Assembly: GCF_005239135.1 (NCBI RefSeq)
Contig: NZ_QKNX01000003.1
Coordinates: 310,001-374,000, forward strand
DNA from: Natronomonas salsuginis
GTDB lineage: Archaea; Halobacteriota; Halobacteria; Halobacteriales; Haloarculaceae
Direction: 5' to 3'
Length of the DNA stretch: 64,000 bases
Below are positions 18,133-28,617 of the stretch, in pieces (within the stretch, counting starts at the first letter, position 1; every line of letters begins with the position of its first letter). The notes beneath the pieces are model-generated. The model made no database searches and had not been told where the DNA came from. It saw only the letters and a program-made list of their open reading frames with translations. A program made the position numbers and the translations under genes.

Positions 18133-21100
18133 CTACACCGTCCGGAGATGGTCCGTCGTCGGTTCGTACACGTCGCCCTGCCGGCGGAGCTTCTCGATCT
18201 CGTGTTCGGCCTGCGATCGCTCCATGCCGATCTCCTCGGCGCGATCCAATATCGTCTCGATCGGCGCGCCCTCGTCGTACTCCGTCTCGATCTCCGCGAT
18301 CAGCGATTTGATGTTTTTGATGCGGTCGCGCTGGCTCTTGCTCCGGCCGGTCTCGACCACGTCCGCGTCGAACTCGCCGGTTTCGGGATCGACGCCGATG
18401 TCCTGCAGACACGATCGGACGATCTCGATGACGCGCTCGGCGTCCTCGCGCTCGACCGTATCCGACAGCCGCATCCGCGCGGAGGCCTCCGAGAGCCGGA
18501 CCAGTGCTTCGAGTTTCCGGGCCGTCACCGGTACCGGCGCGTCGTCGTCTTGGCCCTTCGAGCGCAGATCGACGTAGAAATCCCGTATCTCGACTTTCGC
18601 CTCCTCGGTCATCATCGGATAGCAGTTCCGCTTGGCGTAGGCGATGTACTTGCGAAGCAACTCCGCGTCGATCTCCGGTTCGACGTTCTCGGTGACGTTC
18701 TCGACCTCCTCCTCGGTGACGTTCGACGTCGTCGTGTTCTCGCGGTGGGTGAACAGTTCACCCGCGTAGTTCGTGTTGATGATGTGATCCGCCAGGTTTC
18801 CATCCTTCTCGGCGTCGGGCTGATCCGTGACGGTGAAGATCAGGTCGAATCGCGAGATGAGCGCCGGCTCCAGATCTATCTGCTCGCCGATCGACTCGTA
18901 CTGATCGAAACGGCCGTATTTGGGGTTCGCAGCGCCCAAAAGTGAGCATCTAGATTTGAGGGTGGCGTTAATTCCTGCCTTGCTGACGCTGATCGAGTTG
19001 TGCAGAACGACGCCTTGACTGATGAAGGTGTTCGTTGGCTCGACGGTCACGTCGTAGGCCCACTCGCAGGCGTGCTCTCCCTCGTTCGGGACTATCTTTA
19101 CATCGCGCACCCGGTAGTATCGAAGCTCGCAGCGTTCTTCGAGGTCAGATGCCCGCTTGTCGAACGATTCGAGAGCCTCTGAGATGGCTTTTTTCGCTAG
19201 CTCGGCCAGTCTCGTTCGTCGCTTTTGATCGTATCCACCGCTCTCGGCGTAGTGTATCGCGCTCGTCGTTTCGCCGTCGAGTCGCTCCGCCAGTTGCCGA
19301 CCCGACCAACCGACGACTTCGCGAACCTCGGAAAGCGTTTTTGCCGTTCGAATTCTCCTTTCGATCTCCTCCGCTCGCTCCCGAAGCCCTGTGAGTTCTT
19401 TTCGGACTGTTTCAATCTGGACGCCGTATCCCTCGTCGAGATGCGGCTTAAACCGACCAGTAAGCCGGACACCGAGTAACCGTTTGAGCTCTCTGATCTC
19501 TTTAGCTGCACCTGTCGGCAGTACGTCGTGGTGCCGCAACGTCTCGTTACTCCTCGTGACGAACGCAGCGGCGTCGTCGTAGCGCTCGTCCGCGGCTTCG
19601 ACGACCCGATTGACGAATCGTTCGGTCGAATCGCCCATCACGTACACTTTCCAAGAGTCCTCCGCGATGTCGTAGTGAATTCGGGAGCTAACACCGAGTT
19701 TCGAGAGTGCGTCAGCGTAATCTCTCGCCAGTCCTGTCGACGCCGTAGAAAACGACATCGCTTCGCTTTCGACGCCCCCGTCCCCGGCGAACGCCCCGAC
19801 TAGGAAGCGGCGGATGTTCTCTTCGGAACTCCCGAGCACCTGCGCCGGAATCCGTTTATCGCGTGCTGTGTGCATGAACTCCGGAAAGTTCCGCTCGAAC
19901 CAGCGGTACAGTTTGGTCGAGATCCATCGTTTTGTTACCGTTCCAGCCGCGTTTGTCGTATGGGAGCTTTTCATTCCGAACACCGACGACATAAGGTCGG
20001 CCATCCGATCCAACAATCGCTCGTTTTGGTTCGAAAAGCCGATCTCGTGAGCCGAGCCAGCGTATGAGTGCCCCTCGGCGACGAGGAATCCGAGCGCTTC
20101 TGCGAGATCACCGGTTAGCGTCTCCGGGAGTCGGACGTCCTTTTCTTTCCCCACGTGCGCTTCCGGGTCGAGCTCGACCGCCGCACTCGAGTTTGGAAGC
20201 TTTCGCGGTGCGGGTACGAAGGTCCCCGGTACCATCTCCCTGGCCGGAATCGTTCCCGTTTGGGTTCCATCGTCGACGAACATCGGATGCTCGGGCGTCA
20301 CGGTCACGGATCGTCCGTTCGAAAACGTTACCTGGATGAACTCGTCAGGAGCCTCGTGACGGCTCACCCGATCGATGGGACGCTTGCTCGTCTCGTTGGT
20401 GTCGAAATCGACGGAGTGAACGCCGACACCGTCGATCGGAAGGATCTCACAGTCGATGCCGTCGACGACCGCCTCGGGTTGCGCCTGCATCCGCTCGTCC
20501 ACGAAGTCCCCGATATTGATGCGTCGACCGTCTGAGAGCAGGATTTCGGTGTCAGGGTGGTATGATTGCTGCTCGAGCGCTTCGTGCATTGCCGAGCGAT
20601 CTTCCGGGCGCATCTTATCTAGCTCGTCGACAGCGGCGATTCCCTGATCGGCCAACACGAGCGCGCCGGCTTCCAGCGTCCACTGCTGGCCGTCGCCGAA
20701 GTCGTCGCGAACCGCGGCGGCGGTGAGTCCCGCACTGGACGAACCTTTACCAGAGGTATAAACCGACCGTGGAGCTAGGTTACGGACGTACTGGAGTAGC
20801 TGGGAGTTATGCGAGATGACGTTGTTCGAGACGTAGCTGTGGGTTCCCTCGACTTCGAGGTCGTAAACCCAGTCGTAATCAGGGTCGACGGGTTCGATCG
20901 AGTCGATCCGATCCCAGACGATATCGCTATCCACGAGCGCCCGAAGTCGTTCGATAGCTTCCTTCACCGACAACGCCGCGTCGATCCGCTCTAATACGGC
21001 CTCTTCCGCACCAGCCACGCGTCCACCGTCCGGAACGACTTCGTTTCGTTCGTAGTAGCTCACGGCGGACTGCTCTACGCCCATCCCGCTGGCTAACGAG

Positions 21101-23385
21101 GCCTGAGAGATGTTCAGCTCATCCCGGCTCTCGACGATGGTGTTCCAATTACCAGCGGAAACGGACTCGCGAAGCTCCGATAACTCGTCGAGCCTTTTCG
21201 AAAAGGCACGCAGAACCGTACGGAGGCTGGAACGGCTCGGATTTCTGTCACCCTGCTCGTAATGTTGGTACGTAGTTCGCGGAATCCCGCAGTCGAACTG
21301 CGACAGTTCGAGCCGCTCTCGAATCTCTCGCAGCTCGTTGCCGACGTTCGGAACGATGTCCGTATTCGTGTTCACGGAAACCTCTTCGAACGCCGAGGCT
21401 GCATCGGATTTTCGGTTGGTGACGAACCCTATCTCAGCTCTGTACCGCTCGAAATCCTGACCGCTGATCCTGAGTCGATAACTTCCGTTTGCCCTCGATT
21501 GTAACTGTGCTTGAATCTCGAACGAAAGCAACAGGCTTCGAACGCCCTCTAACAGTTCCCGACTCGTCGAGGCAACCGAGAGTTCGCGTTCCGTATCCGA
21601 AACCGTGCACTCACCATCGATGTACGCTCTCAAGAATCCTGCTTTACAGGGGCGCGTGGCACGGAATACCACTGGTGGTACGCGCTGTTCGGCGGAGCTT
21701 TCGAGCATTGCCGGCTCGATGCTTTCGAGGAATCGAACGAGCTCTCCGGACGAACAGACCAGTTCGTTCGCAGTCTTTTTACCATGTGGTTTCCGTTCGA
21801 AATAGTTTACTCCGAGTTGATCGAAGACCGATGCCGCATCATCGAGTATCTCTGCGTCGTTGTTCGTCAGCCAGATGCCGCCCGTGTTGTCGTCGCGGTG
21901 CTCGACGTACCCCTCCGCGACGATATAGCCGATCAACCGGGCGAGTTCGGGTGTCAGTTTATTGGGTGCCTCCAGCCGAACGGCGTTGTTCGATTTCGAT
22001 CTGCGGTAGGAAACGTCGAGGGTGTCATCGCCCGCCACCGGTAACGAGCGCGGTGCGGCGATGAACTTCCCTTCCTCCAGATCTTTCGTCTGACGGGCAC
22101 GAATACCCCCGTCAGAGCTAACGAACAATGGGTGGCTCGGCGTCACTTCCAACGTTCGTCCGGTTGCTGTTTCGACTCGATACATCCGTTCTGGCGTCTC
22201 GCGTTTCCATACTTTCGTCGCGCGTTGATGTCTGAGAACGCCGTCGTGGCTCATCGACGGGACCGCAAAATCGACCTCGTCGTAGACGCCGTCGTCTATC
22301 GGTTTTGGATCGTCGAGATTCGATTCTACGAGTTCTTTGAGCGGAACTTCGCTCCCGTCCGAAAGTGTAACTCTCGTGTCCCCTTTCGCGCACTTACCCG
22401 TACCGGGATCACCGATCAAGAGCATGTGCAGATCTCCCCGCGTCCGTGATCCGTCCGGGAGATGCTTCGTCACGCCCGAGAACAGCTGCATGATGATCGC
22501 GAGCTTCTCCTGGTCGTAGCCGTAGATCGAGGGGGCCATCGAGGCGATCATCTTCTCGTAGATGTCGGACTCGTTCGAGAGCTCGATGATCCGCTTTTTG
22601 TCCTCGTCGGTGATGTCCATGTCCTCGAACTGCTCGTCCTCGATCTCGACGGACATCCCGTCCATGTACACGTCGAAGATGGGGGACTTCTCCTGGTTCG
22701 ACCCCTGCTGGTCGAGGTGAAGGACGCCCGTCACGCGGACGTGATCGCCCGCGGTCACGTGTCCCGTGATGTCGTCGTCGATGTGGACGTCGATGCTCTG
22801 CGGCGTTTCGCCGCCGCGGAGTCCCTCCGGGGACTCCTGTACCCGGAGTTTCTGCGCGTCGACGAACTCCGACTGGTCGAAGTTGATTTCGAAGGGGCCC
22901 TGCCGCTCACAGCCCTGACACTCGTGTGGTTCGTAGAAATCGCCGGAGGTCTGCGGAATGCGCGTGAGGGTGCCGCAGCGCTGGCACTCGAAGGCCGCCT
23001 CGGTGACCTTCGGGCGCACGTCGGTCGCCTTCCGGACGATCCCCGTCACCTCGACGAGCTGGCCGCGGTGGCGCGCGCGAATGTCGCGGATGCCGGTCGT
23101 TTTCTGGAGGTTTTGGACGCGCACGTGCGCTTGACCCAGCTTCACGTCGACCGGCAGATCGTAGAGTCTGAGCGCCTCCTCGGCGTACTCGCGCATCTGG
23201 TCGGGTTGGGCGACGAAGTCGTCCGCGAGATCCGGATCGAACCGGTAGAGATCGTCCCAATCGATGTACAGCGAGCGCTTCTCGTTCGGGTACTTCTGGG
23301 CGAGTTGGCCGATCTCGTTGCGGTAGTAGTCCCGGTAGAACCCTTCGAACTTGTCGATGACTTCCGTGTTTTCCGCGCGAGCCAT
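18133..23385 (-). CDS. mcm: replicative helicase MCM, interrupted by two inteins
   Basis: The hexameric replicative DNA helicase. The 1750-residue precursor splices to about 698 residues, the normal haloarchaeal MCM length. Exteins show the zinc motif C-x2-C...C-x2-C (134, 137, 156, 159), Walker A GDPGTGK (325-331), Walker B VDELDKM and the arginine-finger segment SRFDLIF, then a C-terminal winged helix. Intein 1 follows the P-loop Lys directly; intein 2 splits EALEQQ/SISVSKAG. The frame opens 16 codons further upstream, but the ATG at 23385 fits the N-terminus MARAENTE and a TATA-like TTCTTATTC near 23416. Active helicase requires both splicing events. Confidence 0.96.
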   Translation of the reverse strand: MARAENTEVIDKFEGFYRDYYRNEIGQLAQKYPNEKRSLYIDWDDLYRFDPDLADDFVAQPDQMREYAEEALRLYDLPVDVKLGQAHVRVQNLQKTTGIRDIRARHRGQLVEVTGIVRKATDVRPKVTEAAFECQRCGTLTRIPQTSGDFYEPHECQGCERQGPFEINFDQSEFVDAQKLRVQESPEGLRGGETPQSIDVHIDDDITGHVTAGDHVRVTGVLHLDQQGSNQEKSPIFDVYMDGMSVEIEDEQFEDMDITDEDKKRIIELSNESDIYEKMIASMAPSIYGYDQEKLAIIMQLFSGVTKHLPDGSRTRGDLHMLLIGDPGTGKCAKGDTRVTLSDGSEVPLKELVESNLDDPKPIDDGVYDEVDFAVPSMSHDGVLRHQRATKVWKRETPERMYRVETATGRTLEVTPSHPLFVSSDGGIRARQTKDLEEGKFIAAPRSLPVAGDDTLDVSYRRSKSNNAVRLEAPNKLTPELARLIGYIVAEGYVEHRDDNTGGIWLTNNDAEILDDAASVFDQLGVNYFERKPHGKKTANELVCSSGELVRFLESIEPAMLESSAEQRVPPVVFRATRPCKAGFLRAYIDGECTVSDTERELSVASTSRELLEGVRSLLLSFEIQAQLQSRANGSYRLRISGQDFERYRAEIGFVTNRKSDAASAFEEVSVNTNTDIVPNVGNELREIRERLELSQFDCGIPRTTYQHYEQGDRNPSRSSLRTVLRAFSKRLDELSELRESVSAGNWNTIVESRDELNISQASLASGMGVEQSAVSYYERNEVVPDGGRVAGAEEAVLERIDAALSVKEAIERLRALVDSDIVWDRIDSIEPVDPDYDWVYDLEVEGTHSYVSNNVISHNSQLLQYVRNLAPRSVYTSGKGSSSAGLTAAAVRDDFGDGQQWTLEAGALVLADQGIAAVDELDKMRPEDRSAMHEALEQQSYHPDTEILLSDGRRINIGDFVDERMQAQPEAVVDGIDCEILPIDGVGVHSVDFDTNETSKRPIDRVSRHEAPDEFIQVTFSNGRSVTVTPEHPMFVDDGTQTGTIPAREMVPGTFVPAPRKLPNSSAAVELDPEAHVGKEKDVRLPETLTGDLAEALGFLVAEGHSYAGSAHEIGFSNQNERLLDRMADLMSSVFGMKSSHTTNAAGTVTKRWISTKLYRWFERNFPEFMHTARDKRIPAQVLGSSEENIRRFLVGAFAGDGGVESEAMSFSTASTGLARDYADALSKLGVSSRIHYDIAEDSWKVYVMGDSTERFVNRVVEAADERYDDAAAFVTRSNETLRHHDVLPTGAAKEIRELKRLLGVRLTGRFKPHLDEGYGVQIETVRKELTGLRERAEEIERRIRTAKTLSEVREVVGWSGRQLAERLDGETTSAIHYAESGGYDQKRRTRLAELAKKAISEALESFDKRASDLEERCELRYYRVRDVKIVPNEGEHACEWAYDVTVEPTNTFISQGVVLHNSISVSKAGINATLKSRCSLLGAANPKYGRFDQYESIGEQIDLEPALISRFDLIFTVTDQPDAEKDGNLADHIINTNYAGELFTHRENTTTSNVTEEEVENVTENVEPEIDAELLRKYIAYAKRNCYPMMTEEAKVEIRDFYVDLRSKGQDDDAPVPVTARKLEALVRLSEASARMRLSDTVEREDAERVIEIVRSCLQDIGVDPETGEFDADVVETGRSKSQRDRIKNIKSLIAEIETEYDEGAPIETILDRAEEIGMERSQAEHEIEKLRRQGDVYEPTTDHLRTV
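18997..20565 (-). mobile_element. MCM intein 2 with LAGLIDADG endonuclease
   Basis: A 523-residue in-frame intein starting with Ser (SYHPDTEILLSDG) and ending VVLHN before extein Ser, so it uses Ser1, His-Asn and Ser+1 splicing residues. Block B is TPEHPMFVDD. LAGLIDADG-like motifs are ALGFLVAEG and LVGAFAGDG, each keeping an acidic residue (Glu, Asp), so the homing endonuclease may be active. Near the C-terminus, VGWSGRQLAERLDG...AIHYAE looks like a helix-turn-helix. The insertion site is EALEQQ/SISVS. G+C is visibly lower than in the exteins, consistent with horizontal spread. Confidence 0.93.
20806..22392 (-). mobile_element. MCM intein 1 with LAGLIDADG endonuclease and tandem HTH
   Basis: A 529-residue intein inserted straight after the Walker A lysine (GDPGTGK/C...N/SQLLQ). 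It starts with Cys (CAKGDTRVTLSDG), has block B TPSHPLFVSSDGG and ends VISHN before extein Ser. The endonuclease motifs are LIGYIVAEG and FLRAYIDGEC; the second keeps an acid (Glu) but has Cys where Gly is usual. Between the endonuclease and the C-terminal splicing block are two helix-turn-helix-like segments (around LELSQFDCGIPRTTYQHYE and LNISQASLASGMGVEQSAV), probably for DNA recognition. AT-richer than its host gene. Confidence 0.94.
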
Positions 23386-23544
23386 TCTGCGTACACTCCC
23401 TTCGCGCGTGATCGAATAAGAACCTTGCCTCACCGGACCGGAAGTGAACGCCGCGATCGTGTCTCCCTCCGAGGGGTATCGAGCGCGTCACGTTCGCCAC
23501 GAGCCGTCGTCCTGCGGGATCGGTTTCGGCGTTCGCGTCAGCCG

Positions 23545-24726
23545 TCATTCGTCGGCCGGAGGGACCTCCGGATCCGGGCCATCATCCGGTTCTGAGGGCG
23601 CTCCTCCCTCGCCCGGCTCCGTACCGTCCGCGTCGACTCCCTCAGTCTCTGGCCGTCCGTCACCGGGGGTGGCGGGTCGGTACGTGTAGAGATAGCCGTC
23701 GTGAAGCACGTAGTAGGCCTCCTCGTTCGGGTCCTCGATGACGCTGTTGTTGGTGTCGATAGCGAAATCCACCAGCGAGCTCAGCGATGTCGCCGCGGCC
23801 CGCGGTCTATCGAACGCCTCCTTCGGGAGTTGCATCGTCGATATCCACTCGTCGAGATCCGTCCGATCGTCCTCGTAGGCGAGCAGCTCCCGCTCTGTGG
23901 GGGTGAGCGCGAGTTCCCCTCGACCGCGGGCGACCACGAGCCCGCCGAGCGCGGCGAGCGAAACCGCCAGCAGTGCTGGCGATCCGAAACTTCGAAGCGG
24001 TCCGGGCGACCGCTCGACCGTGACGGTTCGCATCGCCTCGCTGCGGTCGGTCAGCTCCCCCGGATCGTCGAGTCGGTAGACGCCCTCCTCGAGCGAGATC
24101 GGTAACGCGTGCTCTCGCGACGCTTCGACCTCCCGGCCGTTGACCCTCCCCACCATCTCGACGACCACACGGATCTCGACCTCGGCCTGCCCGGGCGGGT
24201 CGCCGAGCTGCTCCTCGATTCGGTCGGTCCGATTCGCCGTCTCGTTCATGTTGATCGCGAACGGAACCTCGATGGCTCCTCGAGGCGAGAGCGCCCCGTC
24301 TCGACTCGTTTCGAGCGGTTCGCTCGTCTCCCAGACGACCGTCGTGTTCTCGCGAGTCTGCTCGACGCCGCGGAGGACGAGTTGCACCCGAACGGTCGTG
24401 TTCAACTCGCCGCCGTCGCTCGCCTCGTACTCGAACGCGTACGTCCCGTTGAGCCACGGCGTGACTTCGGTGAAGTAGACCGACCGATCCTCGAGTGTGG
24501 TCCCGGCGGGATAGGCGGCGGTGTCCTCGGTCACCGTCGCCGAGTGCTCGAACGCCCCGGTCGTCTCCCACGACGAGCCCGGACGCTCCTCGGTCGTCGT
24601 GGGGGGCGAGGCGTACGTCACGTACGTGAGCCCGCCGCTGCCGACGACGAGGACGACCAACACGGCGACGACGATCGGAAATTGGGCGTCGAGCAGCGCT
24701 CGAAGTCGGCGAGATCCGGTGCTCAT
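23545..24726 (-). CDS. DUF5305-like membrane protein
   Basis: A 393-residue protein with an N-terminal transmembrane helix (about 16-34), a roughly 210-residue extracytoplasmic beta-rich domain containing several N-x-T/S sequons, a second helix near 250-270, and a cytoplasmic acidic, Pro-rich tail. The ectodomain pattern (TYAFEYEASDGG, EVPFAINMNETANR) matches what I know as DUF5305 proteins, which in haloarchaea often accompany signal peptidase I and exported small proteins. Such genes lie next to it. Function unknown; assembly or processing of a surface protein is an inference. Confidence 0.75.
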   Translation of the reverse strand: MSTGSRRLRALLDAQFPIVVAVLVVLVVGSGGLTYVTYASPPTTTEERPGSSWETTGAFEHSATVTEDTAAYPAGTTLEDRSVYFTEVTPWLNGTYAFEYEASDGGELNTTVRVQLVLRGVEQTRENTTVVWETSEPLETSRDGALSPRGAIEVPFAINMNETANRTDRIEEQLGDPPGQAEVEIRVVVEMVGRVNGREVEASREHALPISLEEGVYRLDDPGELTDRSEAMRTVTVERSPGPLRSFGSPALLAVSLAALGGLVVARGRGELALTPTERELLAYEDDRTDLDEWISTMQLPKEAFDRPRAAATSLSSLVDFAIDTNNSVIEDPNEEAYYVLHDGYLYTYRPATPGDGRPETEGVDADGTEPGEGGAPSEPDDGPDPEVPPADE

Positions 24727-24880
24727 CTCCGGAATCCATGCGTCCCCTGCGGTTTGTTATGCGCTTACTGGCTCCCGTAGGACTCGCTTACGACGCAACG
24801 GGCGTCGTCGTGGGGGTCGATCGATCTCGAACTCCGCTTTGCGGCGTATAACTTTGCGTGCGTCGCGTCACGCTCCGTTC

Positions 24881-25198
24881 ATGGACACGATCGCGAACCT
24901 CCCGAGCAGACCGCTCCGGGAACGAGATATCGCCCCACTGTGCGCCGACGATCGGCTCGACGCCGTTCCGTACGGTGGAATTCCCGACGCGGATTCGATC
25001 CGTATCTGCACGATCAAGGTCGCGACCGACGACACCGCACACGCACTCGGCGTCGACGACTCGGACGGACGGTGGACGCGGCTCGCGTCGGTCGACGCCG
25101 ACGACCTCGTCGCGGCCGACAGGCGACTCGACACCGCTCTCGACGAGTGGGTTCAGACCGTCTACGGCGGTGAGTTCCGGGTTCTGAAGTCGATCTGA
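24881..25198 (+). CDS. hypothetical haloarchaeal protein
   Basis: A 105-residue acidic soluble protein with no recognised motif. The ATG at 24881 is about 31 bases after the TATA-like CGTATAACT (24845-24853), and the reading frame has normal haloarchaeal codon use, which favours it over the overlapping antisense frame. The middle (SIRICTIKVATDDTAHALGVDD) could be a small beta sheet. It is divergent from the DUF5305-like gene. A short hairpin follows the stop codon. Confidence 0.6.
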   Translation: MDTIANLPSRPLRERDIAPLCADDRLDAVPYGGIPDADSIRICTIKVATDDTAHALGVDDSDGRWTRLASVDADDLVAADRRLDTALDEWVQTVYGGEFRVLKSI

Positions 25199-25227
25199 TC
25201 GGATTGCCCGCGTTGCCCTCCGCCTCG

Positions 25228-25244
25228 CGATCACCGCGTGATCG
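25228..25244 (+). terminator. 7-bp hairpin after the 24881 gene
   Basis: CGATCAC and GTGATCG flank a CGC loop, 30 bases after the preceding stop codon. No T-run follows, so a terminator role is weak. Its core resembles the inner part of the hairpin over the argX start (GCGATCAC...GTGATCGC). It may equally be a protein-binding palindrome. Confidence 0.3.
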
Positions 25245-25451
25245 ACGGCGTAAGCCGAGCCAAACTCAGCCGCACACAGTCTCTGCGGCCGCCGAACAGA
25301 CCGTTTGTCGGCTTCGATGGGGCTCTCTTCCGATTCCGCTTGTTCTCTATTCCAAAGGGGGATACCCACAAAGGCTGGAGTGCGCGCCGCAGTCGGTGGG
25401 TGCTCACACACCGAACTGGACGCGGCGCTCGACAACCGAGGGAGAACACCA

Positions 25452-26033
25452 ATGCAACGACGCAAATTCGTAATCGGTTTGGGATCGCTCGCGGCCGGGG
25501 CTAGTGCCGTGGTCGGCACCGGCGCGATCACGGAAACGAGTATGGAACGAGGGGTTCGCGGACGGGTCGCCGCTGATGGTCCGAATAGCGCGTACGTGGC
25601 AATAAACCCGTTACTTAACGGAGAACACCTCGAATTCAACCAGTCGACGGGAGAGATGCGCCTGTTCTTCGGTGATCTCGGAAGCGGAGGCGCTGGACTC
25701 AACCCCGATTCGAACAATCGATTTGACGCGATCTTCGAGGTGGAGAATCAGAATCCAGGTGGTAACCCTGTCCACGAATTCTGGCTCTGGATCGAGAACT
25801 CGCACCCGAGGCTGACGTTCTACCTTGACAGTCAACCCGGCAATTCGATCGAAGGCATCTCGAACGCCGAGTCGATGGGTAGCGGGAACGACGATCCCGT
25901 GCGCGCGCCTGTAGGCGTCCACATCGACCTGACTGACTCCGGGCTGACTGCGGGTGATAATCTCCAGTCGCTGTTCGACCCGAACGATGAGTTCGTCATT
26001 CACATGGAGAAGACGAACGGAAGTCCACCGTAA
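25452..26033 (+). CDS. exported TasA/DUF1102-like surface protein
   Basis: A 193-residue secreted protein. The N-terminus MQRRKFVIGLGSLAAGASA has a twin-arginine-like motif followed by a hydrophobic stretch and GTGA, the typical start of haloarchaeal exported proteins. The mature part is acidic, beta-rich and contains RGVRGRVAADGPNSAYVAI, a segment echoed in the 28213 product. The gene directly precedes the signal peptidase gene (69 bases apart). The arrangement recalls SipW-dependent TasA-type fibre or matrix proteins; DUF1102 similarity is from memory and unverified. G+C is lower than in flanking housekeeping genes. Confidence 0.7.
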   Translation: MQRRKFVIGLGSLAAGASAVVGTGAITETSMERGVRGRVAADGPNSAYVAINPLLNGEHLEFNQSTGEMRLFFGDLGSGGAGLNPDSNNRFDAIFEVENQNPGGNPVHEFWLWIENSHPRLTFYLDSQPGNSIEGISNAESMGSGNDDPVRAPVGVHIDLTDSGLTAGDNLQSLFDPNDEFVIHMEKTNGSPP

Positions 26034-26102
26034 ATAGAACGAGTACGAAAACGACGATATGGCCTCTTTACTTTTTTCGACGCTATTCGAAGCACTCCTG
26101 CT

Positions 26103-27239
26103 ATGCCGCTCAAGAAACATCATATCTCGACGTTACTGAGCGGCCTCCTCGTCTTGTTCGTCGTTTCACTCGTTCTGAGCGGATTGTTGGGCCAGCCAAT
26201 TTTGATCGGCTACGTCGAAACTGACAGCATGTCTCCAGCGCTGGATCCCGGAGACGGATTCGTTGCGATTCCTGCGGAACTCAGCGGCGAGATACACGAA
26301 AACGATGTCGTCGTATTCCAGGCTGAATTCCTCCACGGTGGGGGATTAGTCACCCACCGTGTCGTTGGAGAGACCGACTCCGGATACATCACGAAAGGGG
26401 ACGCGAATCCGATCGCGGACCAATCCGGACGCGGAGAGCCTCCCGTACAAAACGAGCAGATCGTGGCGAAAGCGCTTCAAATAAACGGACAGCTCGTGGT
26501 GCTTCCGAATCTCGGCGCGCTGGTCGAGACCATACAGGGTGTAGTCGAGGGGACGCAACTTCGTCTCGCGGGCCTTTTCGGAACTCGACTATTTCTCGGA
26601 GCGCACGGGATAGCGATACTCTCCTCGATCCTCCTCTTTTTCGTATATATCGGCTTAACTCTGCAAGAGACCGCTCAACGCCCCGGAAGGGAGTACGAAC
26701 GTGATTCGACTCGATCCACGGGGATGAGTAGTCACGTGTTCGTCGTCGCCATCATCCTGATGTTGGTTACCGCGACCACACTCGGGATGGTGCTCCCGAG
26801 TACGACACACGAACTGGAAGCGATCACATCGGACAGCGAAACGGTGACGTTGAACGTCGATAACGCGGGATTCCTTCCGGTGGTCGTACACTTCGAATCT
26901 AACAGCGGGTCGATCACGGTCGATCCACAACGTCTGTACGTCCCGTCGCAGTCCTCCCAAGAGGCAAAGGTGGTCCTGCCGCCGCCGGAGAGCGCGGATG
27001 ATATGCGTCGTTATCTCGATGAACGCCGATACTTCGCCCTCCTTCCGCAACCGATATTGACGACACTTTATCGGTTCCACCCCTGGGCCCCCATCCTCGT
27101 CATCGACGCGCTGATCGCGGTGCCGTTCTATCTGCTCGGGATCGGACTGCTCGGGACGGGTCGGATCCGGAACCGATCTCGGGACCGGGAACTTCCTGTC
27201 CTCACGCGCGTCCGCCGGATGTTTCGGGAACTGTACTGA
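26103..27239 (+). CDS. signal peptidase I (S26) fused to an extra membrane/extracytoplasmic half
   Basis: A 378-residue protein. The N-terminal half is an archaeal/ER-type signal peptidase: transmembrane helix 11-30, catalytic Ser42 in ETDSMSPAL, His85 in VTHRVVG (His replaces the bacterial Lys) and the GDAN box at 99-102. A helix at about 166-186 follows. The second half adds a helix (211-231), a beta-rich extracytoplasmic domain (about 232-328, with DNAGFLPVVVHFESNSGSI) and a final helix (330-351). It probably matures the exported proteins beside it, as SipW does for TasA. The extra half may bind substrate. G+C is visibly low. Confidence 0.85.
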   Translation: MPLKKHHISTLLSGLLVLFVVSLVLSGLLGQPILIGYVETDSMSPALDPGDGFVAIPAELSGEIHENDVVVFQAEFLHGGGLVTHRVVGETDSGYITKGDANPIADQSGRGEPPVQNEQIVAKALQINGQLVVLPNLGALVETIQGVVEGTQLRLAGLFGTRLFLGAHGIAILSSILLFFVYIGLTLQETAQRPGREYERDSTRSTGMSSHVFVVAIILMLVTATTLGMVLPSTTHELEAITSDSETVTLNVDNAGFLPVVVHFESNSGSITVDPQRLYVPSQSSQEAKVVLPPPESADDMRRYLDERRYFALLPQPILTTLYRFHPWAPILVIDALIAVPFYLLGIGLLGTGRIRNRSRDRELPVLTRVRRMFRELY

Positions 27240-27619
27240 TCGACCGGTCGTTTCGCACACGACGATCGGACTCTTGCCGAGGATCGTCGTCCGTCGTCGC
27301 GAAAGGCCCCCGACGGCGAACCGTTGACGCCCCTTACCATCGGTAGATTTCGCTTTCGATCCGTCGGCATTCTCCGACCGACATTCCGAAAAGTATCTCT
27401 CGCATATAATATGGTGTATCCCCCACATACTCCGCTCAGTAGCCGGGTACCGGCATTCATATACATGTGAAGTATAAGATACTGGATCATCGCTCTCCCG
27501 CTCGTAGAGAGTGTTTGTGGACGATGTTGGGAGTTCATAGCAAAGTACCCGTCAGGTGACGTGGCGAACGACATGGGGGCACTGGTCATCACTGAGGAAT
27601 TTAGGACAGCGATTCAACC
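27240..27619. other. 380-base intergenic region with hairpin and AT-rich segment
   Basis: No gene was recognised. ACGACGATC (27259-27267) pairs with GATCGTCGT (27282-27290) around a 14-base loop just after the signal peptidase stop; no T-run follows. An AT-rich part at about 27390-27490 holds TATA-like runs (CATATAATATGG near 27404 and CATATACATG near 27460). The 27620 gene may be transcribed from here with a long leader. CTCTC...GAGAG near 27494-27512 is a weak second hairpin. Confidence 0.4.
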
Positions 27620-28216
27620 ATGAGCAGCGTGGGATCGAACGGACCGTCGGTCCAGCGCTCGTCCGACGCCGTCCGCTTCTCAAGAGACGACACGCTGGAA
27701 GTGCTCAGCAACCGACGCCGTCGCTTCGCGATCCACTACCTCAAACAGCGAAACGGCGGACAGACGACCGTCTCCGAACTCGCCGAACGGGTGGCGAGCT
27801 GGGAGAACGACAAAGAGATCGACGAACTCACACACCGGGAACGAAAGCGCGTCCGGAACGCCCTGCGGCAGTTTCACCTGCCCAAGATGGACGAGTACGG
27901 GTTCCTCGAGTACGACGTCCAGCGCGGGACCGTCGCGCTCTCGGCGGCCGCCGCCAGGGAGGACTTCTACGTCGATTCGCTCACGGGAGGCGAGATCCCC
28001 TGGAGCGTTTACTATCTCGGCCTCTCGGGGTTGGGGATCGCCTGCGTGGCCGGGCTCTGGATGGGTCTGTTCCCGTTCACCTATCTCTCGCCGCTCGAAT
28101 GTGGCGTCTTTTTTGTCACCGTTCTCGTGGTTTCATCGCTCGGACACTTCTACGACAACTACTACCGGATGCGGCTGGGATCGCGCGAGAAACCGCCAGA
28201 GGTTGGACGGAAATGA
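27620..28216 (+). CDS. membrane-anchored winged-helix regulator (DUF7344-like)
   Basis: A 198-residue protein with an N-terminal winged-helix DNA-binding region (about 22-118: ALSNRRRRFAIHYL-like opening, TVSELAERVASWE, then RVRNALRQFHLPKMDEYGFLEYD) followed by two transmembrane helices (about 130-151 and 158-175). The pattern matches haloarchaeal DUF7344 proteins. DNA binding with membrane anchoring suggests a one-component sensor controlling nearby surface genes. It overlaps the next gene by ATGA, so the two are coupled. Confidence 0.75.
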   Translation: MSSVGSNGPSVQRSSDAVRFSRDDTLEVLSNRRRRFAIHYLKQRNGGQTTVSELAERVASWENDKEIDELTHRERKRVRNALRQFHLPKMDEYGFLEYDVQRGTVALSAAAAREDFYVDSLTGGEIPWSVYYLGLSGLGIACVAGLWMGLFPFTYLSPLECGVFFVTVLVVSSLGHFYDNYYRMRLGSREKPPEVGRK

Positions 28217-28617
28217 GCCGCCGCCGAATGCTGTTGCTCGCGGGCGCTTTCGTCATCAGTCTCGCGCTCGTGACGGGGACCAGCGGCGTGAGCTCGGTCA
28301 CGATGACCCGAGGGATCGACGGGGCCATCGTCGACGACCAGCGCGCCTACCTCGGGATCGAACAGACGGCCACCGCCGACGCCGGCACCGCCGTCCTCGA
28401 GGTGCGAATCACCAACCGACATCCAACTGCGGCGTTCACGACCATCGTGGTGACGATCAACGGGACGACCGTCGATCTCGGCGGTGGCGGTCCCGTCGCT
28501 CCTGGCGGGGCCGTCTCGCACACGTTCGAGTCGGTCCCCTGCGACGCCACGGCGGAGATCGAAGCGTCCGGAAGCGATCTTGGCATCGAACTGGAGCGCG
28601 CGGTGGCCTGTGCGTAA
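28213..28617 (+). CDS. small exported protein paralogous in pattern to the 25452 product
   Basis: A 134-residue secreted or lipid-free surface protein. MSRRRMLLLAGAFVISLALVT begins a signal peptide; the mature part starts near residue 27 and contains TRGIDGAIVDDQRAYLGIE, which lines up with RGVRGRVAADGPNSAYVAI of the 25452 protein. The rest reads as an immunoglobulin-like beta sandwich (AVLEVRITNRHP, TTIVVTINGTTVDLGGG). It is translationally coupled to the membrane regulator upstream. Likely a partner or minor subunit of the surface protein system; function unproven. Confidence 0.65.
   Translation: MSRRRMLLLAGAFVISLALVTGTSGVSSVTMTRGIDGAIVDDQRAYLGIEQTATADAGTAVLEVRITNRHPTAAFTTIVVTINGTTVDLGGGGPVAPGGAVSHTFESVPCDATAEIEASGSDLGIELERAVACA

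Follow-up and report, generated by a model that had tools for sequence, protein, structure and literature searches.

Five genes on a 64-kb stretch of Natronomonas salsuginis DNA (the window) raise the question of whether this haloarchaeon encodes a surface fibre with its own signal peptidase, and whether such a system would be new, as a first-pass annotation had proposed. The ORF list of the window confirmed all five genes and their coordinates, which are collected in Table 1 together with two further features of the locus.

Table 1. Position and family assignment of the features of the locus (window coordinates)
Feature	Position	Strand	Details
DUF5305 membrane protein	23545..24726	-	393 aa; Pfam PF17231 E 2e-52
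Sixth ORF, small, acidic, between DUF5305 and X1	24881..25198	+	105 aa; without family
X1 exported pilin-like protein	25452 (ATG)..26033	+	193 aa; similarity to 9p0a
SipW-like ER-type S26 signal peptidase	26103..27239	+	378 aa; TIGR02228 E 2e-14
A+T-richer gap, S26 to wH	27240..27619	.	380 bp; GC 0.539
DUF7344 winged-helix (wH) membrane protein	27620..28216	+	PF24035 E 1e-28
X2 small exported Ig-like beta-sandwich protein	28213..28617	+	134 aa; no Pfam match

The cluster had been described as a block of low G+C, and this held for X1 (0.577), the S26 gene (0.575) and the gap that follows it, all below the window value of 0.661, but not for DUF5305 (0.672) and X2 (0.679), which are of normal composition. 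The gap is probably the site of the promoter of the wH-X2 unit. The start of X2 overlaps the stop of wH (ATGA) and the two genes are probably translationally coupled; among 69 adjacent wH-X2 pairs, 48 lay within 7 nt of each other and 26 overlapped as ATGA, counts in which short distances are favoured because the nearest start codon was taken. The sixth ORF was rejected as a part of the module, as a search of 60 genomes brought up a single weak match elsewhere and it is not conserved with the other genes. A tRNA-Pro gene lies directly downstream of the cluster; integration at this site was also considered and rejected, no tRNA repeat of at least 12 bp being found between 15 and 40 kb. The MCM helicase gene at 18133-23433 (minus strand, 1766 aa) carries two internal intein-like stretches, apparently two inteins, with a G+C content below that of the window.

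X1 starts with a twin-arginine leader (MQRRKFVIGLG...GTGA), followed by ITETS, the mature part beginning at approximately position 25527 (Ile26). A single-sequence phmmer search of the PDB with X1 returned one match, chain C of 9p0a ('Pilin', E 3.9e-6), an entry released on 2025-07-23 with the title 'Structure of Natrinema sp. J7-2 Tafi pilus'. A first X1 profile, in which close relatives of 9p0a were included, matched this chain with E 8e-41, and a second profile, built from X1 plus 13 further proteins, syntenic or paralogous, and with the close relatives of 9p0a left out, matched it over almost the full length with E 7.4e-28. The resolved chain of 9p0a has 188 residues and ends at residue 215, and so should begin at Phe28, right after GTGA; its leader follows the pattern RR...GTGA|F, and the GTGA|Ile of X1 aligns with the Phe28 position.

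The AlphaFold2 model of mature X1 (pLDDT 81.6) found 9p0a as its top structural match in the PDB (Z 9.3 over 132 residues, 3.4 Å), a moderate similarity. Donor-strand pilins filled almost all of the top rows, with the Pyrobaculum bundling pilus 7ueg second (Z 7.9), the Sulfolobus thread 7pnb fifth (Z 7.2) and FimA-type pilins at Z 6-7.7. The same model gave nothing below E 1e-3 in Foldseek, where the TasA fibre 8aur was ninth and weak (E 0.074). Single-sequence search, profile search and predicted fold agree that X1 is homologous to the solved haloarchaeal Tafi pilin 9p0a, and in this respect the proposal of a SipW/TasA-like fibre module was well founded; X1 is the sole candidate for a fibre subunit in the window cluster. 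No viral relatives of X1 were found by exact peptide patterns.

In the small exported partner X2, the end of the leader and the strand motif that follows (GTSG|VSSVTMTRG...) correspond to those of X1. The profile of the X2 family matched 9p0a with E 3.8e-13, and comparison of the X1 and X2 profiles gave a probability of 98.7%, chiefly over the leader and N-terminal strands, which makes the two proteins homologous. AlphaFold2 folds X2 (pLDDT 87.1) into a compact sandwich of Ig-like type whose N-terminus is disordered, and a fold search with this model yielded generic Ig/FnIII-like sandwiches only. Cys110 and Cys133 both recur in several relatives. The free N-terminus was of low confidence in the predicted models of both X1 and X2, which would fit polymerization by donor strand. 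A weak sequence resemblance links X2 to TafC-type proteins (E 0.0024; 17.1 bits vs a cut-off of 410), and the equivalent of X2 at one other locus (L042) matched TafC with E 6.7e-9. TapA (PMC10151520, PMC9674648) and Saci_0405 (PMC9715654) are proposed fibre-starting or capping subunits, and by analogy X2 is most likely a minor subunit that initiates or caps the fibre.

The peptidase passes the cut-off of TIGR02228, the ER-type/archaeal signal peptidase I model (53.7 bits vs 51.85), and lies under the equivalog cut-off of SipW NF046067 (E 1.3e-7; 31.4 bits vs 190). Residues S42, H85, D100 and D106 were invariant in an alignment with 18 relatives; a Ser-His-Asp, ER-type arrangement is expected of SipW-like enzymes. 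Four TM segments are predicted, with an extra ectodomain of ∼100 residues (∼231-330) between TM3 and TM4. This ectodomain matched none of the curated families. Its identity as a pilin domain like those of X1 and X2 was rejected in the absence of profile similarity, its PDB matches were designed armadillo repeats with no passing stretch and were treated as artefacts, and a match to Cep192_D3 in the window protein (E 0.0015, under cut-off) was absent from nine relatives. By its sequence, the peptidase of the window belongs to the long, SipW-like kind of S26 enzymes and bears an extra ectodomain.

The DUF5305 protein has an N-terminal TM segment, an extracellular domain, a second TM segment, a conserved cytoplasmic domain and an acidic tail (two predicted TM in all), and the cytoplasmic part is the best-conserved region of the alignment. 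No mention of DUF5305 was found in the open literature searched. Its co-occurrence and topology suggest that it most likely anchors the processed subunits in the membrane or takes part in their assembly. The DUF7344 protein, which joins a winged helix to two C-terminal predicted TM segments, is probably a membrane-bound regulator.

Linkage of these families was counted within 6 kb of the long S26 gene at 35 loci, 32 of them from relatives and the other three being the window cluster and its two sisters. DUF5305 was present at 28, X1-type genes at 30, DUF7344 at 27 and X2-type genes at 17, as compared with no DUF5305, X1 or X2 at five generic S26 loci. Of 59 named loci from haloarchaea whose flanks were complete, every one had X1 or X2 near the long S26 gene, the individual totals being 56 for DUF5305, 57 for X1, 42 for X2 and 48 for DUF7344. 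Both counts identify S26, the exported TasA-like subunits, DUF5305 and the membrane winged-helix protein as a recurrent module, and the synteny of peptidase, DUF5305 and exported partner envisaged by the first-pass annotation extends across Halobacteria. When 60 genomes were surveyed for long S26 (E of roughly 1e-9 or lower), 40 had both long S26 and DUF5305 and 19 lacked both, while one had S26 without DUF5305 and none had DUF5305 without S26; DUF5305 accompanies long S26 in 40/41 genomes (Fisher 1e-14, a value overstated by the relatedness of the genomes). Recurrence of the module families across Halobacteria is far beyond chance. The commonest gene order is X2< wH< X1> S26> DUF5305>; the window cluster has the same gene set, but rearranged. 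Many haloarchaeal minimal clusters contain a single X1 adjoining S26 and DUF5305.

The N. salsuginis genome holds three long S26 genes, all of which have X1-type neighbours, in addition to one other match to S26. One sister cluster, C4 (L007:3793-12370), contains several exported proteins of Taf-like type along with DUF5305, DUF7344 and S26; the other, C2 (L009:7686-14372), contains S26 and three paralogous X1-type genes without DUF5305. A third DUF5305 gene (C1; L180, ∼182948-183601) has a DUF7344 gene near it and no S26 or X1, and may serve the C2 cluster. An orphan TafE/TafA-like gene (C7; L008:8570-9187) of low GC3 (0.48) sits amid housekeeping genes with no peptidase nearby. Three loci of other haloarchaea (L072-L074) carry S26 enzymes of a shorter subfamily (326-331 aa), with X1, X2 and DUF5305 but no DUF7344 nearby, possibly a second version of the module.

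The best NCBIfam match of X1 was TafE (E 1.3e-7; 31.5 bits vs a cut-off of 155), and TafA was also matched (E 1.3e-5; 25.4 bits vs 190); as the Taf matches in the window lie under the curated cut-offs, orthology to the named Taf proteins is not established by them. Eight genomes carry closely spaced genes for TafA, TafC and TafE, a few kb apart, whose products all pass the NCBIfam cut-offs; the clusters that were read over their whole length include S26 and DUF5305 (L086), DUF7344 and DUF5305 (L088) or DUF7344 and S26 (L066). Since the Taf genes that pass the cut-offs sit among the same families as are present in the window, S26, DUF5305 and DUF7344, the window module appears to be a cluster of the same kind with divergent subunits. 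It shares with the Tafi pilus of Natrinema sp. J7-2 (9p0a) homologous exported subunits, the RR...GTGA leader and the predicted fold. It differs from the named Taf systems in that X1 and X2 score far under the Taf cut-offs, there is one X1, X2 is short and without the C-terminal part of TafC, and DUF5305 is on the opposite strand. Taken together, the window cluster is very probably a minimal, divergent archaeal fimbria cluster of the Tafi (TasA-like) type. The suggestion of an undescribed system does not stand, given that the Tafi pilus has been solved, NCBIfam has TafA, TafC and TafE, and the same families surround Taf genes that pass their cut-offs. What the analysis adds is the minimal divergent cluster itself, the close pairing of DUF5305 with S26 throughout Halobacteriota, and the peptidase ectodomain; part of these results may already be published with 9p0a.

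X1 had been labelled TasA/DUF1102-like, and this description stood as regards fold and leader layout but not as regards the family models: neither X1 nor X2 matched TasA/camelysin PF12389 or SipW-signal TIGR04088 at E 1, and the match of X1 to DUF1102 (PF06510) was below threshold (E 0.0076; 16.9 bits vs a gathering score of 22.2). The cluster resembles TasA/TapA/SipW of Bacillus subtilis in its dedicated ER-type peptidase, a leader that ends with a motif of the G-T-x-A type, a predicted beta-sandwich subunit with an N-terminal donor strand and a small accessory subunit; it differs in the unmatched models and the weak Foldseek match to 8aur, and has DUF5305, DUF7344 and the peptidase ectodomain in addition. 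The sipW-calY1-bc_1280-calY2 operon of Bacillus cereus likewise places a SipW-type peptidase beside two exported subunits, the camelysins (PMC10151520); DUF5305 and DUF7344, which that paper does not name, are both present in the window, where X1 and X2 miss the camelysin Pfam model. TasA and the Sulfolobus thread subunits polymerize by donor strand (PMC9674648, PMC9715654). The Pyrobaculum calidifontis bundling pilus (7ueg) and the Sulfolobus thread (7pnb) are archaeal donor-strand pilins and structural matches of X1, but their sequence similarity to X1 is slight (the X1 profile reached 7ueg with E 1.8).

Outside Halobacteria, DUF5305 was detected in 24 genomes of a phylum sample, and at all ten of the loci fetched an S26 gene lay within about 5 kb. 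Exported neighbours at 4/10 of these loci passed both the PF12389 gathering score and the TIGR04088 cut-off. These camelysin/TasA-type loci are L170, L172, L174 and L178, the last three with two S26 genes each. At L177, DUF7344, DUF1102-type subunits, S26 and DUF5305 occur together, and a syntenic relative there is a clear DUF1102 protein (E 6.7e-35). Shared partners tie the haloarchaeal cluster to true SipW/TasA-type systems, though X1 misses both models, and the kinship of X1 with TasA rests on fold, leader layout and the camelysin-bearing DUF5305 loci of other archaea.

The best reading of the cluster is that X1 would be exported, probably via Tat, and kept in the membrane by its leader until the co-encoded S26 enzyme cuts after GTGA and frees the N-terminal strand. 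That strand would then insert into the incomplete beta-sandwich of a neighbouring subunit (donor-strand complementation), giving a thin extracellular fibre which X2, with its X1-like leader and strand motif, would start or cap. DUF5305 would anchor the processed subunits or help to assemble them, and the DUF7344 protein would regulate from the membrane. Export, GTGA cleavage, polymerization and the part given to X2 are each held with less confidence than the identity of the cluster itself. A more speculative extension, which we consider doubtful, is that DUF5305 and the S26 ectodomain form a membrane assembly platform, with peptidase, chaperone and anchor in one complex, in which the ectodomain would hold open the groove of the newly cut subunit.

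The presence of one X1 only in the window cluster, the ordinary Ig-like domain of X2 and the best score of X1 being to TafE, an adapter according to NCBIfam, would also suit surface adhesins or S-layer-associated envelope proteins that have the pilin fold without polymerizing, and for which S26 is merely the peptidase. The nearest solved homologue of X1 is, however, a fibre subunit, and a single X1 stands by S26 and DUF5305 in many minimal clusters, where it is the only candidate for a major subunit; we regard this alternative as unlikely. The match to TafE could also indicate a minor or adapter subunit working with pilins of C4, C2 or the C7 orphan, as the same genome offers two further clusters with S26 as well as the orphan gene of TafE/TafA-like type. 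This is somewhat easier to entertain but still improbable, as the window cluster has its own S26, DUF5305, wH and X2, a minimal set found again in many genomes. The clustering of small exported subunits would also suit a type IV pilus or archaellum-like system, with a class III leader and dependence on PibD, but here the peptidase is a type I S26 enzyme, the twin-arginine leader with its GTGA|I cut has no class III motif, the predicted fold is that of a beta-sandwich pilin and the ORFs on either side of the cluster showed no assembly ATPase, which makes such a system extremely unlikely.

Read as a Tafi-type fimbria cluster, the locus extends these fimbriae to a minimal and divergent gene set and shows the module to be widespread in Halobacteria. 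DUF5305 gains a functional context, as it accompanies SipW-like peptidases with hardly an exception and forms a link between the Taf loci of haloarchaea, archaeal DUF1102 loci and true camelysin loci. The cluster raises the testable question of how cells that have neither outer membrane nor usher assemble and anchor donor-strand fibres. The proposed DUF5305-S26 platform, if true, would be the equivalent of chaperone-usher assembly in archaea that lack an outer membrane, acting on SipW-type fimbriae throughout Halobacteriota.
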